From positions 1 to 64,000 of the forward strand of contig CACYWQ010000011.1 in the NCBI GenBank assembly GCA_902778165.1: 64,000 nucleotides of DNA. Reading direction: 5' to 3'. The translations under genes and the position numbers were made by a program. How positions within the stretch are numbered: position 1 is the first letter of the stretch; the number at the start of each line of letters is the position of its first letter. Under the pieces are notes generated by a model that worked only from the letters and a program-made list of their open reading frames with translations, searched no databases and was not told the origin of the DNA. Source of the stretch: an uncultured Lachnospiraceae bacterium. Lineage in GTDB: Bacteria > Bacillota > Clostridia > Lachnospirales > Lachnospiraceae. Shown one piece after another: positions 2,589-61,680 of this stretch.

Positions 2589-4727
2589 ATGAATGCACCG
2601 TTAATAACCGACTACGGCAGCGATAAGAACAGAAAGTACCGATTCGCGTTCTTATCTGCCGGAATAATCGTCAATGTTGTTTTATCTTATGTATTATACA
2701 AGATGGGCCTGCCGTTATTCCTTGATACGGTAGGCACAATATGTGTTGCCGCGATAAGCGGTCAGATATACGGTATAGCATGTGCCGTAGCAACCAACGC
2801 TCTTTGTCTGGCGTTTAACAGCAGTTCTTTTTATTTCTCCATCGTTCACGCATTAATAGCTGTATATACGGCGTGGTTTTTCAAAAGATACAGGATGGAT
2901 AAGGTTAGCAGTGTTATTGCTTTCAGCGGATCTACGGCTGTCATGGCGGGTGCGTTAAGTTCCGTCATACAGTGGTGGTTATTCGGTGATGCGCAGCATA
3001 CGCTTGTTGCTGATACCACCAGAGCATTTGCCTTAGCCACCAATCTTCCTTATTTTTCATCATTCTGTATAACCAATATACTCGTTAATATTGTCGATAA
3101 GAGTCTGGCATGTCTTTTGGTGTTGCTGGTTGTAAGATTGCTTCCGCAGAAGGCCATGGATATTGTTAAGACAGGGTGGTGGATGCAACGTCCTTTGACG
3201 GATGATGAAATCAAATCCGTTAAGATATGGGAACGCGACATTAAGAATCCCATGAAGGAGAGAATTGCATATATGCTGGTTGCTTCTTCTTTGGTACTTG
3301 TGGTTGCCACCACTTGGATATGCATGCATATGTATTATGAGAATGAGAAGGCTGAGAAGACAGATACCGCAATGAATGCGGCCAAATTTGCAGCCGACGC
3401 CATAGATGCCGATAAGGTCGATGATTATCTTCAATCCGGTGAGAGTGCACCCGGATATATGGAGACCAAGAAACTCTTGGAGAATATCAGATCAAGTGCC
3501 TCCGGTGTGGAATATCTGTATGTGGTCAAACTCAAACAGGACGGCTGTTACTTCGTATTTGATCTGGATACAGAAGAAGAACCCGGATATTTACCCGGTG
3601 AGAAGTTGGAATTTGAGGAGGCTTTTAAGCCTTATCTTAATGATCTGTTTGAAGGGAAAGAGATAGAACCCATAGAGTCAGATGATCTGACCGGATGGCT
3701 GCTTACGGCATACTACCCGATAAAGGATTCACAGGGTAACTGCGTGGCCTATGCAGGTGCGGATGTTTCTTTAGGATACATGGCACAGTATTTAAGAGAT
3801 TTCGTGTTAAAGATCGGACTTATTATGTCGGGAGTATTCATCATAATTACGGCATATGTATTGTGGGCTACGGGTATATATACTGCATATCCCATAAGCG
3901 CCATGGCTTCGAGCGTAGACAGATATACCAATTCCGGCGGTAATCAGGAACGGCTTGATGAGAATGTAAGAGCGTTTCGATCGCTTAACATACATACGGG
4001 AGATGAAGTGGAGAAGTTGTATCATGCCATCTGCAGAATGACGCTTAATCAGGCTGAGCAGATGCGAAGCATACGACATCTGTCGGATTCAACGGCTAAG
4101 ATGCAGGACGGACTGATCATCACCATGGCAGACATGGTCGAGAGCAGGGACTCCGATACGGGTGCGCATGTACAGAAGACGGCAGCCTACGTTAAGATTA
4201 TTGCCGAGGGCCTTAAGCGGAAAGGATATTATGCATCCAAGGTGGACAATAAGTTCATCTCCGATGTTGTCAGATCTGCGCCTTTACATGATGTAGGTAA
4301 GATCAATATCTCCGATGCCATTCTTAATAAGCCCGGCAAGTTAACGGATGAAGAATATGAGATTATGAAGACTCATACAACTGCCGGTAAGAAGATACTT
4401 GAGAATGCAATAAGTACGATCAAGGGTGAGAACTATCTTAAGGAAGCCAGAAATATGGCTGCATATCACCATGAAAGGTGGGACGGTAAAGGATATCCCG
4501 AAGGATTGCACGGAGAGGTTATTCCGTTGGCTGCACGTATTATGGCGGTTGCGGATGTATTTGATGCACTTACTTCCCCCAGAGTATATAAGCCTGCATT
4601 CCCGCTTGATAAGGCTCTTGCAATCATAGAAGAAGGTTCGGGAACGCAGTTTGATCCCAAGGTTGTGGAAGTGTTCATGGAGTCACTTCCCGAGGTTAAG
4701 GTTATTCTTAAGAAGTATAATCAGTAA
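2589..4727 (+). CDS. Membrane HD-GYP domain phosphodiesterase
   Basis: Probable cyclic-di-GMP phosphodiesterase. 712 aa from ATG 2589, chosen because GGGAGG precedes it and a promoter lies at 2483-2511; the frame is also open from a GTG at 2520 that has no ribosome-binding site. N-terminal multi-pass membrane region (about residues 15-180), then a membrane helix (about 225-245), an extracytoplasmic sensor region ending in a PAS/Cache-like [25 protein letters not shown] segment, another membrane helix (about 400-420), and a C-terminal HD-GYP domain. Catalytic residues are intact: His567-Asp568 in LHDVGK and Gly635-Tyr-Pro in the GKGYPEGL segment. First gene of a signalling operon with the hybrid kinase 25 bases downstream. 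The signal sensed is unknown. Confidence 0.9.
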
Positions 4728-4752
4728 TCATGACCGGAGGCAATCGGTATTA

Positions 4753-25836: not shown

Positions 25837-27309
25837 ATGGATTATTTGGAAGACGAATTATACAAAGAAGAAGAGCAGATCAAGACTGTCATTAACAGCG
25901 AGATTGATGATGTTATTCATGGAATTCTGGTAGTCAATCTGGATAATTATAATGCGATCAGAGAGCAGATAGGACAGGAAAGGATCGATCGTGTTCTTGA
26001 GTTGATCGGTGATAAATTCCGTCAGATTTTCAGAGGAAGCGATATAGTTGTTAAGCTAAGATACGATGAGTATATCATTTTAACACGTAATGCCAAGGAG
26101 TTGGGTAATGTGGAATTCCTTGCCATGAAGGTGCTTGAGTCCGTGGGTAGCATGGAGCCTGTTGATGGAATGAACATCAGCTGCGGTGTGGGAGTGTCGA
26201 TTTATCCCCTTCACGGAATCAATTATGCGGAGCTTAAGAACAAGGCTTATCGCGCCTTATACAGGGCCAAGGCCAAGGGACCGGGTAATATGAGGCTTCA
26301 TGATGCCGCCCTTACTAAGATACTGTATCATGACTATGTATTTGACAGAAAGTCATATGAGAAATGTAAGTCATTAAATCTGTATGATCTTACGGTTAAT
26401 AAGACTTTGCTTCAGATATGTTCCAATCTTCTGATCGATGATAAGGATGCACTGGGCGCCATGAATTCAATTCTTGAGATCGGATGTAAATATCTGGGAT
26501 TTTCAAGAGTGTATTTCTATGCTCCCGGTAAGTTAGATCCTGTGACTCGCAAGAAATTAACCTATGCAAATGCGGGATTTGAATATGCTGCCGAAAGCGA
26601 AGTAATGAAAGCGCTTCGCGAAGATATGCAGATAAGGATATCCGAAAGATACAGTTCGCTGACGCTTATTGACTCAGATGATGAGAGGGTTGATGAAGAA
26701 GTCAGACTTACTCTTAAGGATAAGGATATCAATCAGCTCCTGTATTTCCCGCTTGCCGGCAAAGGAGATATATTCAGAGGCGCGTTCATATTTGAGAACA
26801 TGTCGGTTGATAAGATTAAAATGACCGAAGAAGAGATAAGCAGCATCGATGAGCAGATGAACTCGATCAAGTCGTATTTCTTCAGTTCATTCTCGAAGAG
26901 ATTTGCTAAGGAAAATATGGCAAAACTTGAGATGTTTGAGAATATTCCGGCCAAAATATATATAATCAATTCAGAGACCAATGAGATTGAATTTGCCAAT
27001 CAAAAGGCTAAAGAAGGCATAGAAGGCGGACATATCGGAGAACTGTGTTATTCCACCTTCTGCAGACAGTCATCGCCTTGCGCGAACTGTCCCTTAAAGA
27101 CAATGGATCCTGATGATGAACATGCCAACGGATCATTGTCATATTATAATTTCGCCAACAGAGAATGGTGCTATAATCTGTATTCGTGGTTCGGTGTATA
27201 TGAGAACAGAGGCAGGGCGGTAATGATATCCGTAGATGTGGACAGTTTCGTCAATGATCTTGATCAATTAGACAGACTGGCCGGCGGAACAAAGCTTGAG
27301 GATCTCTAA
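25837..27309 (+). CDS. Degenerate GGDEF-domain protein with GAF-like and Cys-rich PAS-like regions
   Basis: 490 aa from ATG 25837, for which GGAG at 25827-25830 is a ribosome-binding site; ATG 25825 has none. A GGDEF-like fold covers the first 165 residues, but the signature reads RYDEY in place of GGDEF and so cyclic-di-GMP synthesis is unlikely. A GAF-like middle region follows (about 190-365), then a PAS-like end with CYSTFCRQSSPCANCPL, a four-cysteine cluster that could bind a metal, an iron-sulfur centre or form redox disulfides. No membrane segment. Perhaps a cytoplasmic redox-linked receptor for cyclic-di-GMP or a partner of the HD-GYP proteins; that is inference. Confidence 0.8.
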   Translation: MDYLEDELYKEEEQIKTVINSEIDDVIHGILVVNLDNYNAIREQIGQERIDRVLELIGDKFRQIFRGSDIVVKLRYDEYIILTRNAKELGNVEFLAMKVLESVGSMEPVDGMNISCGVGVSIYPLHGINYAELKNKAYRALYRAKAKGPGNMRLHDAALTKILYHDYVFDRKSYEKCKSLNLYDLTVNKTLLQICSNLLIDDKDALGAMNSILEIGCKYLGFSRVYFYAPGKLDPVTRKKLTYANAGFEYAAESEVMKALREDMQIRISERYSSLTLIDSDDERVDEEVRLTLKDKDINQLLYFPLAGKGDIFRGAFIFENMSVDKIKMTEEEISSIDEQMNSIKSYFFSSFSKRFAKENMAKLEMFENIPAKIYIINSETNEIEFANQKAKEGIEGGHIGELCYSTFCRQSSPCANCPLKTMDPDDEHANGSLSYYNFANREWCYNLYSWFGVYENRGRAVMISVDVDSFVNDLDQLDRLAGGTKLEDL

Positions 27310-41860: not shown

Positions 41861-41874
41861 ATATCATATAGATT

Positions 41875-41953
41875 ATAAGAAACGGCGACTTGGACAGTTC
41901 GCCCCGGGCGTAAGGCACTCGGAGGACGAATGAGTAAGTCGCTGTTTTCTTAT
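41875..41953 (+). ncRNA. Structured leader element, copy A (pair of 61566-61622)
   Basis: A 17-bp stem with one bulge (41875-41891 with 41936-41953) encloses GACAGTTCGCCCCGGGC (41893-41909), CGGAGGA (41920-41926) and GAGTAAGTCGCT (41932-41943). These three blocks recur nearly unchanged and at almost the same spacing in copy B, and the inner stem has one compensatory pair (T-A here, G-C there). No class I know fits. A promoter candidate, TTGAGA-N17-TAAATA (41835-41863), lies upstream. Confidence 0.65.
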
Positions 41954-41973
41954 TCGGATATCTTTAATCCATT

Positions 41974-41992
41974 ACATTTGTTGCACAAATGT
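41974..41992 (+). promoter_or_regulatory. Perfect inverted repeat before the chemoreceptor gene
   Basis: ACATTTGT (41974-41981), TGC, ACAAATGT (41985-41992). It sits 60 bases before the chemoreceptor ATG and next to an AT-rich, -10-like stretch (TATATATG). It could be an operator or a small hairpin. Confidence 0.4.
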
Positions 41993-42051
41993 GGTAATAT
42001 ATATGTATTGTCAGTCAATTCAACTAGTTTTATGAGGAGGTAGAAGAACTG

Positions 42052-44067
42052 ATGAAGGGAAATAAAAGAAAATCTCTCAAGAAATCTCTGCTAAGTACAA
42101 TAATTCTTATTGTGGCGATCGTAATAGTGATCATCACGCAGATAAGTATCAAGCTTGCGTCGGATAATATTCAGTCCTTGACGAATAACATCCTTGCAAG
42201 AGAATCTGCAACCTATGCGAATGAGATTCAGAGCTGGTGGAGCAACATAGGAGAGAGAGTAGAACAGACGGCTGATATTCTTCGTAATACACCGGAGTTA
42301 TCATATGATGAAGCGCTTGCGATGCTTCTTAAACTGACCGAACTTGATCCTGATTCTCAGGATATATATATGGCGTATGGTGATACCGGTAAGTTCTTGG
42401 ACGGTTCCGGATGGATTCCGGATGATACATTTGTATTTACGGACAGACCGTGGTATCAGGGCGCTCTCGCTGCAGGCGGTCAGATATATTCTTCTGAGCC
42501 TTATGTGGATGCATCTACAGGTAAGACCTGTTTGGCTTGTGCCATAATGATCAAGGATAATGTGGTATTAAGCAGCGATATCAATTTCGATAAGGTTGCC
42601 GAGAAAGTGGCGTCGTTTGATTCTTTATCTCCGGATGCCAAGTACTACATAATCAACAAAGAATCCAAAGACATACTAATCAGTAATATAACAGAGAGTG
42701 TGGGACAGACACTTGCGGATACTACAGATCCCGTTGCCGCAGGTCTTGCACCGATATTTGATTCTCTTAATATGAGCGCTGAGGCAGGTGGAGATAAGGT
42801 TGTTAATTCCAAGACTTCAACGGGAACCTATATGTATACGGCAACAGATATTGAAGGTACTTCATGGGCTGTAGTTTGCGCCGTTCCTACATCTCTTTTA
42901 AGCAATATGATATTGCGCGTTATGTTCGTGACGTTTGTAAGTGCCATAATACTTATCGCAATCATTTCGATACTTATATATATTATCATCAGCAAGGCTA
43001 TCAACCCTGTTACAACCGTTACGGAGCGTATCACTGATATCAGTAAGGGTGACTTTACTGTTAAGATCGTTCCTGAGGGCAATAACGAGATCACTACTCT
43101 GTCAGAGAGCCTTAATGAATACATAGAGAAGATGAGGAATACACTTAACAGCCTCTCAAGTATTTCAGGTGCGATGAACAGCAGGGCAGGAGAGTGTTTC
43201 GATATTTCGCATATTCTCTCTGATGCCAACAGCAACCAGGGTGAGTCTATTGAGAAACTCAATACTACCCTTAGCGATATGAATATCTCCATTGAAGAGA
43301 TCGCACATGCAGCTACAGAACTTGCGGGTACATCAAGCCAGTTGGCCCAGAATGCAGAAGATGTAAGAGTATTATGTGATGAGACCCTTGAAGCTTCTTC
43401 TAAGGGAAGAGATGAGATGGAGAGCATGACAAGAAATGTCACCACACTTGATGAGACCATAGGTGAACTTACGGCTCTTATCAGAGAAACGGCCAAGTCC
43501 ATCGAAGAGATCACGGGTATCACCGATACAATCAATGCTCTGTCAGAGCAGACCAATCTTCTGTCGCTTAATGCTTCGATAGAGGCTGCAAGAGCAGGTG
43601 AGATGGGTAAGGGATTTGCAGTCGTTGCTTCCGAGGTCGGTGTTCTGGCTAATCAGTCATCTGAAGCAACCGATACAATCAGAAGACTTGTTGAGGGTAT
43701 CACCAAGAATATTACCGATATCAACCACAAGGCTGAGATATGTGTTAAGGATATGGAAACATGTATGACCGGTGTGGCTGAGGCCAATGAGTCATTTGAT
43801 AAGATCTACAGTGATGTTGCCAAGGCTACGGACGGTATCTCTGAGATTGCAAGCGGTATCGAGAAGATCAATGATGTCGCTACCAATAATGCGGCTATTA
43901 CGCAGGAGCAGGCTTCAAGTATTAATGAAGTTCTTGGTCTTAGCAGTGAGATTGTATCAGAGAGCAACAAGCTTCGCACGGAGACTGAGAATATCACCAA
44001 TATCTCTGAAAACCTTAATAAGTATTCCGATGAGATCAATTCAGATCTTTCGCAGTATACGGTTTAG
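42052..44067 (+). CDS. Methyl-accepting chemotaxis protein
   Basis: 671 aa. N-terminal membrane helix (residues 12-30), a dCache-like extracytoplasmic sensor (about 35-285, with FTDRPWYQGALAAGGQIYSSEPYVD, the ligand-pocket style of amino-acid sensors), second membrane helix (about 290-315), HAMP (SKAINPVTTVTERITDI) and the MCP signalling hairpin with the tip LSEQTNLLSLNASIEAARAG. AGGAGGT precedes the ATG. Preceded by copy A of a structured element. No other chemotaxis or flagellar gene is here except the FlhB-like one at 29751. Confidence 0.94.
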   Translation: MKGNKRKSLKKSLLSTIILIVAIVIVIITQISIKLASDNIQSLTNNILARESATYANEIQSWWSNIGERVEQTADILRNTPELSYDEALAMLLKLTELDPDSQDIYMAYGDTGKFLDGSGWIPDDTFVFTDRPWYQGALAAGGQIYSSEPYVDASTGKTCLACAIMIKDNVVLSSDINFDKVAEKVASFDSLSPDAKYYIINKESKDILISNITESVGQTLADTTDPVAAGLAPIFDSLNMSAEAGGDKVVNSKTSTGTYMYTATDIEGTSWAVVCAVPTSLLSNMILRVMFVTFVSAIILIAIISILIYIIISKAINPVTTVTERITDISKGDFTVKIVPEGNNEITTLSESLNEYIEKMRNTLNSLSSISGAMNSRAGECFDISHILSDANSNQGESIEKLNTTLSDMNISIEEIAHAATELAGTSSQLAQNAEDVRVLCDETLEASSKGRDEMESMTRNVTTLDETIGELTALIRETAKSIEEITGITDTINALSEQTNLLSLNASIEAARAGEMGKGFAVVASEVGVLANQSSEATDTIRRLVEGITKNITDINHKAEICVKDMETCMTGVAEANESFDKIYSDVAKATDGISEIASGIEKINDVATNNAAITQEQASSINEVLGLSSEIVSESNKLRTETENITNISENLNKYSDEINSDLSQYTV

Positions 44068-44094
44068 GGCTTATTTAACAAGGTACAGACACTT

Positions 44095-44126
44095 AAGAAA
44101 GGAGTTCCGCTTGGAACTCCTTTCTT
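44095..44126 (+). terminator. Intrinsic terminator after the chemoreceptor
   Basis: Perfect 14-bp stem (44095-44108 with 44113-44126), loop GCTT. The 3' arm is itself T-rich (TTTCTT) but there is no long T run afterwards. Confidence 0.85.
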
Positions 44127-44135
44127 GCGGCACAA

Positions 44136-44199
44136 ATGCCAAACTTTCTGTGGCTTACATGCCAAAGCGATTGTCAAAGAAGAGGGCTTGTTGTATAGT
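44136..44199 (+). promoter_or_regulatory. leuCD promoter with upstream direct repeats
   Basis: TTGTCA (44171-44176), 17-bp spacer, TATAGT (44194-44199). Two copies of ATGCCAAA (44136-44143 and 44159-44166) lie 23 bases apart just upstream of the -35 box, in a position where an activator could bind. Confidence 0.65.
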
Positions 44200-44235
44200 A
44201 TATAAGATGATTAGATTGTACGGAGGATATGAGTA

Positions 44236-45501
44236 ATGGGAATGACAATGACACAGAAGATCCTGGCTGCGCATGCGAATCTTGCAAGCGTTGAGGCAGG
44301 ACAGTTGATAGAGGCTAAGCTTGATTTGGTGCTTGGTAATGACATTACTTCGCCTGTGGCTATTCATGAGATGGACAAGATGAAGGTAAACGGAGTGTTT
44401 GACAAAGACAAGATCGCACTCGTTCCTGACCATTTCGTGCCTAATAAGGATATTAAGTCTGCAGAGCATTGTAAGTGCGTCAGAGAGTTTGCCAAGAAGA
44501 ACGATATCACCAATTATTTCGAAGTGGGCCAGATGGGTATTGAGCATGCGCTATTACCTGAGAAAGGCTTGACTGTAGCCGGTGATGTGATCATCGGTGC
44601 CGATTCGCATACATGTACATACGGTGCAGTTGGTGCATTCTCAACAGGTGTGGGAAGCACTGATATGGCTGCAGGTATGGCTACGGGTATGGCATGGTTT
44701 AAGGTACCTTCGGCTATTAAGTTCGTACTTAAGAATAAGCCTGCCAAGTGGGTAAGCGGTAAGGATATTATCCTTCATATCATTGGCAAGATCGGCGTGG
44801 ACGGTGCGCTGTATAAGTCTATGGAATTTACCGGAGACGGAATACAGTATCTTACCATGGACGATAGATTTACGATTGCCAATATGGCTATTGAAGCAGG
44901 CGGTAAGAACGGTATATTCCCGGTTGATGATCTCTGCCTTGAATACATTAAGGAACACAGCAACAGACAGCCTGTTATATACGAGGCTGATGCTGATGCT
45001 ATATATGATGAAGTTATAGAGATAGACCTCTCTGCACTTCGCCCTACTGTTGCTTATCCTCATCTGCCAGAGAATACCAAGACAATCGATGAGGCAGTTA
45101 AGGATGATCTTGCAATAGATCAGGTGGTTATCGGTTCTTGTACAAACGGTCGTATGGATGACCTTAGAATCGCGGCTTCAATACTTAAGGGTAAGAAGGT
45201 TGCTGAGGGAATGAGACTTATCGTTATCCCTGGCACACAGAAGATATATCTGGATGCAATGGAAGAAGGACTTATCCGTACATTCATAGAAGCGGGCGGT
45301 GTTGTATCAACACCCACATGCGGACCTTGTCTTGGCGGATATATGGGTATCCTTGCTGAGAATGAGAGATGTGTCTCAACAACTAACCGTAACTTCGTAG
45401 GACGTATGGGACATATAAGCAGTGAGATATATCTGGCGTCTCCCGCAGTAGCTGCGGCAAGTGCCATTGCAGGTAAGATAGCAGACCCCGAGACAGTATA
45501 G
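44236..45501 (+). CDS. leuC: 3-isopropylmalate dehydratase large subunit
   Basis: 421 aa, the aconitase-superfamily subunit carrying the 4Fe-4S cluster, with cysteines in GSCTNGR and in CGPCLGG near the end, and [22 protein letters not shown]. With LeuD converts 2- to 3-isopropylmalate in leucine synthesis. The short form is the archaeal/clostridial type. GGAGG precedes the ATG; leuD follows after 18 bases. No leuA or leuB in the window. Confidence 0.95.
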
Positions 45502-52993: not shown

Positions 52994-53758
52994 ATGGCGC
53001 TGTTTCTGACAATACTTAAGATAATCGGCATAGTCCTGTTAAGCATTTTGGCGCTTGCACTTCTGATGATATTCATAATCCTGTTTGTGCCTGTCAGATA
53101 CAGGATTAAGGGAAGATATGATGAGGAAGTATATTTAAGGGCAAGAATGTCGTATCTGTTGCAACTTTTCGCACTTACAGCGACATATACGGATAAGCTT
53201 AAGGTCATACTAAGGATCATAATCATACCGGTTAAGCTGTTTCCTAAGAAGAATAAGCCTAATAAGAGCGAATCGACAGAGCCTGAATCTGATAATGGTA
53301 AAACGAGCGCAACTGAGACTAAGGCCGGCGAAGGCAGTGAGTCGACCGGGGCGAACAGTGAAGGCCATAAATCAGATAATAAAGAGAAGCTTAATAAGTT
53401 TAAAGAATATATTGACTTACTTAATGAACCCGAGACCCTTGCCGCATGGGATGTTTGCAAGTATAGGCTTAGCAAGTTGATCAAGGCTGTAGTGCCTAAG
53501 GATATTGATATAAGAGTAAGGTACGGTTTGGATGATCCGTTCATTACATCGGTCATAATGGCCTTTTACAATGTTTTCTATGCATATATAGGTCCGGGAC
53601 TTAGTATAGAGCCTGTCTATACCGGTAAGGCAATGGAAGTATACGGAACTGTCAGAGGCAGAATAATGGCGGCTCCGGTGCTGTGGCAGGCGCTTATGGT
53701 ATTGCTTAATAAGGATTGCAGAAGATTTATCAAGAGATTTAAGAAGTTAAGGAAGTAA
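52994..53758 (+). CDS. DUF2953 family membrane protein
   Basis: 254 aa. One or two N-terminal membrane helices (residues 5-30), then FVPVRYRIKG, the DUF2953 start motif, a Lys/Ser/Glu-rich low-complexity linker (about 80-130) and a C-terminal part (DIDIRVRYGLDDPFITSVIMAFYNVFYAYIGPGLSIEPVYTGKAM). In B. subtilis the homologue ytfI sits beside ytfJ, as here with the next gene. Role unknown, sporulation-associated by neighbour. Confidence 0.82.
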   Translation: MALFLTILKIIGIVLLSILALALLMIFIILFVPVRYRIKGRYDEEVYLRARMSYLLQLFALTATYTDKLKVILRIIIIPVKLFPKKNKPNKSESTEPESDNGKTSATETKAGEGSESTGANSEGHKSDNKEKLNKFKEYIDLLNEPETLAAWDVCKYRLSKLIKAVVPKDIDIRVRYGLDDPFITSVIMAFYNVFYAYIGPGLSIEPVYTGKAMEVYGTVRGRIMAAPVLWQALMVLLNKDCRRFIKRFKKLRK

Positions 53759-61565: not shown

Positions 61566-61622
61566 GCGGCTGACAGTTCGCCCTGGGCATATGTAAATCC
61601 GGAGAAAGATAGAGTCAGTCGC
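61566..61622 (+). ncRNA. Structured leader element, copy B (pair of 41875-41953)
   Basis: Stem GCGGCTGAC (61566-61574) with GTCAGTCGC (61614-61622, one G-U pair) encloses GACAGTTCGCCCTGGGC (from 61572), CGGAGAA (from 61600) and GAGTCAGTCGCT (61612-61623). Distances between blocks equal those of copy A within a base. Lies between degV and the thioredoxin-like gene at 61681. A TATAAT-like box (near 61645) is downstream of it, so it could also act as a DNA element. Confidence 0.65.
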
Positions 61623-61680
61623 TTATATTTTGCATAAAAATAAGTATAATAGGATAGAATCTAAAAAAGAGGAGATTATT

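Follow-up and report, generated by a model that had tools for sequence, protein, structure and literature searches.

A dispersed palindromic element, probably mobile, between and within genes of an uncultured Lachnospiraceae bacterium

What is the structured element that lies between an NAD-dependent epimerase-like gene and a chemoreceptor gene in the 64,000-nucleotide stretch of an uncultured Lachnospiraceae genome analysed here (the window)? A preliminary description reported two copies, A and B (Table 1), and took them for a new or unusual cis-acting RNA, or a ribonucleoprotein-binding site, placed before genes of sensing and redox function. The analysis points instead, with fairly high probability, to short palindromic mobile elements that are scattered over the genome and form a family of the Rickettsia-palindromic-element (RPE) or MITE type.

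Table 1. Copies of the element and related matches in the window, with scores under the sequence model
Feature	Coordinates	Strand	Model score	Parts and context
Copy A, palindromic element	41875..41953	+	30.4 bits	Outer arms 41875-41891 and 41936-41953; core 41893-41904; adjoins, directly 3', the stop codon (41860) of the NAD-dependent epimerase-like gene
Copy B	61566..61631	+	39.2 bits	Arms GCGGCTGAC 61566-61574 and GTCAGTCGC 61614-61622; core 61572-61583; T-rich tail; 3' of a DegV-family gene
Third, weaker copy	53298..53360	-	18.5 bits, E 1.6e-4	Antisense in a 254-aa ORF, at a hydrophilic stretch with the peptide KTSATET
Marginal match	27041..27093	-	17.4 bits	Inside an ORF; probably chance, the proper T-run missing
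17-base block GACAGTTCGCCCYGGGC	41893-41909 and 61572-61588			In copies A and B

The recurrence itself is real. The blocks and stem of copy A return at 61572-61623, with CGGAG and GAGTMAGTCGC blocks at nearly equal spacing; the 17-base block, with N for Y and at most three mismatches, occurs at four places in the window against 0.13 expected from shuffles, and the sequence model marks copies A and B and two weaker places. The longer outer stem ascribed to copy A is likewise present, as 12-nt outer arms (AAACGGCGACTT/AAGTCGCTGTTT, 92% complementary) plus ATAAGAAA/TTTCTTAT, and this copy is predicted to fold into a long hairpin (-39 to -40 kcal/mol, z about -5.7 to -5.8). The fold of copy B is weaker (z -1.7 to -1.8), and the repeat finder, at the settings used, listed no inverted repeat for it. 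The pairs behind a supposed compensatory change, T41891-A41936 in copy A and G61572-C61616 in copy B, do exist, but a reading of the two sequences places them in a slipped register. Covariation is weak: an alignment of five copies holds two pairs with two-sided changes, no excess over shuffled alignments (78 of 500 reach as many). No Rfam family exceeds its gathering threshold for A or B (best sub-threshold scores 13.7 and 15.1 bits), a tRNA being the sole match in the window, which bears out the view of a structured element without a known RNA family.

The element is far from being a two-copy pair. The 17-base block, at up to three mismatches, occurs at 58 places in the host genome (2.35 Mb in 48 contigs) compared with two for a reversed control pattern. 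Fifty-two of these places were analysed for anatomy, and a sequence-only model was built from 48 of them; the four rows scoring lowest outside the seed were dropped beforehand, and the model therefore leans towards the T-run described below. This model finds 65 places in the host at E<=0.01 and 100 at E<=5, chance matches included, a count that may be low because 150 of the 424-433 first-look candidates were scored for it.

The element is an imperfect palindrome, about 60-75 bp long, whose T-run keeps a constant spacing from the core GACAGTTCGCCC. On the 3' side of the core comes first a G-rich stretch and then, around +44 to +49, a distal CAGTCGC motif; with at most one mismatch, this motif lies at +41 to +50 in 49% of the host sites whose core has at most one mismatch (45 in all) and in none of the control windows. 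Position +59 is T in 41 of the 52 sites, +60 in 39 and +61 in 44, the seed pattern having no T-run. A TTT starts between +56 and +61 in 37 of the 45 sites, against a mean of 6% and a maximum of 16% for same-width windows elsewhere, the DNA of these 45 (not that of the 52-site set) having been fetched in part by a model that had learnt the T-run. In some intergenic copies GTCAGTCGC has a pairing partner, a 5' arm resembling GCGACTGAC; this arm is detected in 7 of the 45 sites (2 of 25 intragenic, 5 of 20 intergenic). The interior is more variable than copies of one master would be, even allowing for a seed that selects the core, and many copies look old.

Six intergenic copies chosen for their arms fold with z scores of -3.4 to -8.0. 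When the core is held fixed and folding is compared with shuffles, relatives' copies included, the mean z is -0.94 for intergenic copies (n=26), -0.74 for sense intragenic copies (n=12) and -0.33, near background, for antisense intragenic copies (n=16); 12 sites set aside as likely chance have a mean of -0.03.

Evidence for insertion comes from copies inside genes. Mechanical ORF finding places 25 of the 45 sites within ORFs, with both strands and different frames represented; a protein motif as the cause of intragenic copies was rejected because reading frames differ among copies. Thirty-six intragenic host sites (core with up to two mismatches plus T-run) were compared with genus orthologues, 1 to 17 per site and in some cases including TrmA-family paralogues; five had no usable orthologue, leaving 31 testable. 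At 15 of these 31, at least 10 residues at the site are missing from some orthologue, compared with 2 of 31 when the flanking ~110 residues are measured in the same way; among the positives L019 is marginal, and in some genes the residues are missing from a single orthologue (one of four for L001, and likewise for Lon, L122). Such gains accompany 6 of 10 exact cores, 7 of 9 cores with one mismatch (13 of 19 when these two classes are pooled) and 2 of 12 cores with two. They are in frame and amount to about 10-28 residues in several proteins, the genes concerned encoding, by Pfam assignment, TrmD, an 8-oxoguanine-glycosylase (OGG)-like protein, two TrmA-family methyltransferases, a glycosyltransferase, a CbiJ-containing fusion and Lon. 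A gain of 10 residues was not found at the remaining 16 testable sites (4 with an exact core, 2 with one mismatch, 10 with two). Plainly conserved protein accounts for several of them, and chance matches in such protein include what look like an ABC-transporter signature and RadA.

In trmD, the relevant stretch measures 171 bp in the host and 108-138 bp in 12 relatives outside the element-bearing group, while in G003-G006 and G010, the other element-bearing genomes, it is diverged and 147-174 bp long, suggesting that insertion was old or repeated. In several cases, as judged by eye, the T-run or most of it is already present in insert-free relatives, and it therefore looks like the landing site. 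Among the 20 antisense sites listed, four encode K-x-[AT]-A-T near the T-run (including KAAATET and KKAATET), the third copy in the window has KTSATET, and one further site (L039) has KTTATDT.

Between genes, 10 of the 20 intergenic host sites with at most one core mismatch begin within 80 nt 3' of the end of a same-strand ORF, a count without a control. The core lies 32 nt from the end of the epimerase-like gene in copy A and 36 nt from an ORF end in copy B; both copies have hairpins and T-rich tails 3' of ORFs, and a terminator scan for loops of 3-8 nt flagged neither. Intergenic copies probably serve as terminators, and for A and B termination would be the simplest function and a likely one.

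The proposed link of copy A to the chemoreceptor is not supported. This copy comes directly after the epimerase-like gene's stop codon. In G006, the closest relative, whose epimerase is 97% identical to the host's, an ordinary terminator-like hairpin stands behind the epimerase gene, and a gene that we take to be leuC-like comes next, with neither chemoreceptor nor copy A. The epimerase loci of 12 relatives, taken as stretches of up to about 4 kb, contain no core with at most one mismatch; five of them hold places with two core mismatches. Judged from these comparisons, copy A and the chemoreceptor are thus not conserved together. Close counterparts of copy B occur in G005, G006 and G010, the similarity continuing into the T-rich tail; in G006 the counterpart is on the same contig as the epimerase gene, about 16 kb away compared with about 20 kb in the host. 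In the host, the interval between the epimerase and leuC-like genes (41861-44240) is taken up by the chemoreceptor gene and copy A; in G006 it is only about 126 bp long.

On contig C43 (L110) and at C3:43500-52500 (L111), accessory genes such as those for Rpn nuclease, YbaK and GNAT stand in arrays with a copy every 1.0-1.7 kb, five and four in number, in a single orientation within each array. In the C3 array, three of the four copies also resemble one another over about 95-120 bp upstream of the element, and at 4713-4750 and 6356-6390 of L111 a second palindrome (like AAGGAGTGTG...CACACTCCTT) stands 3' of the element like an added terminator. An Rpn-family nuclease gene touches one C43 copy, an observation offered as a lead only.

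The family is narrowly distributed. A search of related genomes, as the preliminary description had suggested, yields further copies: the model reports matches at E<=0.01 in 6 of 20 genomes of the genus, namely 65 in the host, 31 in G005, 8 in G006, 3 in G010, 2 in G004 and 1 in G003. A two-part pattern run against species genomes gave 10 stretches, five of them true-looking elements in two Lachnospiraceae metagenome-assembled genomes (MAGs), one titled sheep rumen; the other five look like chance. Five 200-base stretches of these two MAGs match G005 or G006 loci without a difference, and the MAGs therefore correspond to G005/G006 or are very near to them. Spread through viruses was rejected: the two-part pattern has no match in the viral contigs, and the 11 exact 17-mer matches there lie in G+C-rich contigs, without T-run or distal motif. 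Among the matches listed in the open literature searched, no such element is reported for Lachnospiraceae.

If the element is a mobile palindrome, it would insert just 5' of a pre-existing T-run and in one orientation. Copies in coding DNA would survive where they leave the frame open and add their residues to a loop or linker, and those landing after stop codons would be kept as intrinsic terminators, the likely job of A and B. The mobilising enzyme may have been lost. No target-site duplication was established, and none could be read in old copies. The end pattern occurs at 11 places in the host compared with five for a control; by eye, none lies near another and no pair could border a transposon, and an insertion sequence sharing the element's ends was rejected on these grounds. 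Y1 transposase, reverse transcriptase and integron integrase were likewise rejected as mobilisers, being absent or below cut-off in the host.

By description, the closest likeness is to the RPEs, which a review of MITEs (PMC10969869) presents as dispersed palindromic repeats often found in frame inside ordinary genes. The element described here is also a palindromic, dispersed, multi-copy repeat with in-frame insertion in protein-coding genes; because the comparison is by description and not by sequence, it is regarded as working like an RPE rather than as a member of that family. RPEs measure ~150 bp (same review) compared with about 60-75 bp here. In addition, the present host is a Lachnospiraceae bacterium, the core and T-run are conserved rather than the whole element, several frames and both strands are used, and intergenic copies are terminator-like.

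MITEs (RUP, BOX, ERIC, SPRITE) are similarly small and numerous, and have inverted ends. For these, the same review calls in-frame fusions of intragenic copies not unusual and spells out SPRITE as a rho-independent terminator-like element. Possible MITE-type terminal inverted repeats (GCGACTGAC/GTCAGTCGC) occur in the chosen intergenic copies, the 5' arm occurring in only the 7 of 45 host sites given above; neither a partner transposase, with the end pattern tried, nor a target duplication was found, and the interior is little conserved. REP elements, which have Y1 (RAYT) transposases, are also small palindromes in many copies, but at 20-40 bp (as given in PMC3733652) they are shorter than the element, and no PF01797 (Y1 transposase) match exists in the host genome, G005 or G006. 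It is possible, if doubtful, that the element typifies a structure-dependent class of mobile element outside the known transposon types, inserting in one orientation beside T-runs with almost any interior, leaving in-frame peptides in housekeeping enzymes and terminators (perhaps cassette borders) between genes.

Integron attC sites are sequence-variable and fold-bearing. The element resembles them in both respects, folding being kept on average while the interior varies, and it lies partly in gene arrays. It might accordingly be an attC-like recombination site bordering gene cassettes, with copy A and the chemoreceptor as a captured cassette. The arrays of C43 (five copies) and C3:45-50 kb (four copies), with one copy per 1.0-1.7 kb, one orientation each and accessory genes between, would fit this, as would the presence of chemoreceptor and copy A in a host interval whose G006 equivalent is only about 126 bp long. 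However, of the five host matches to PF00589, the fifth has internal stops and was left out of the integron-integrase scan, and the four open-frame proteins score 123.5, 71.9, 74.1 and 19.2 bits against a cut-off of 265, the best being a XerD protein. Many copies also lie outside arrays, intragenic copies carry no gene, orientation relative to genes differs between the two arrays, and the C3 repeat unit is longer than the element. A recombination site of this kind is an unlikely explanation.

Slightly less probable still is SINE-like retroposition, in which a terminator-ended small RNA is copied into DNA and its 3' U-tail, by pairing with A-runs, fixes the orientation to T-runs. The fixed orientation and distance to T-runs, the hairpins with T-rich tails and the detection of the 5' arm in 2 of 25 intragenic and 5 of 20 intergenic copies are consistent with such a route. 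Against it, no reverse transcriptase exceeds the cut-off in the six element-bearing genomes, five of which are 79-85% complete drafts; there is a weak partial match in G004 and none in the host. Among the 14 other genomes of the genus, 7 have a reverse transcriptase over the cut-off, compared with 0 of these 6.

A DNA-recognition motif, uptake-sequence-like or chromosome-organising, created by point mutation and not by insertion, would account for a conserved core with a T-tract at fixed distance, a free interior, use of both strands and confinement to one species group; but the coincidence of intragenic copies with gains of 10-28 residues, at 15 of 31 testable sites, makes it highly improbable. 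Least credible of all is a riboswitch or other cis-regulatory RNA for sensing or redox genes, as first proposed: the element is structured and copy B has close counterparts in three other species, but an Rfam match is absent, copies follow or lie inside unrelated genes on either strand, housekeeping enzymes included, and the 12 relatives' epimerase loci lack a core with at most one mismatch.

The mobile palindromic family thus preferred would have a bearing on how proteins evolve. According to the review PMC10969869, RPEs give rise to in-frame fusions unusually often, and proteins of other prokaryotes could conceivably evolve in a similar way; an RPE-like route appears here in a group of Lachnospiraceae. 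Since related species carry loops of several lengths, comparisons of individual genes can address insertion, decay and tolerance, and the fixed orientation to T-runs provides a testable clue to the mechanism of insertion.
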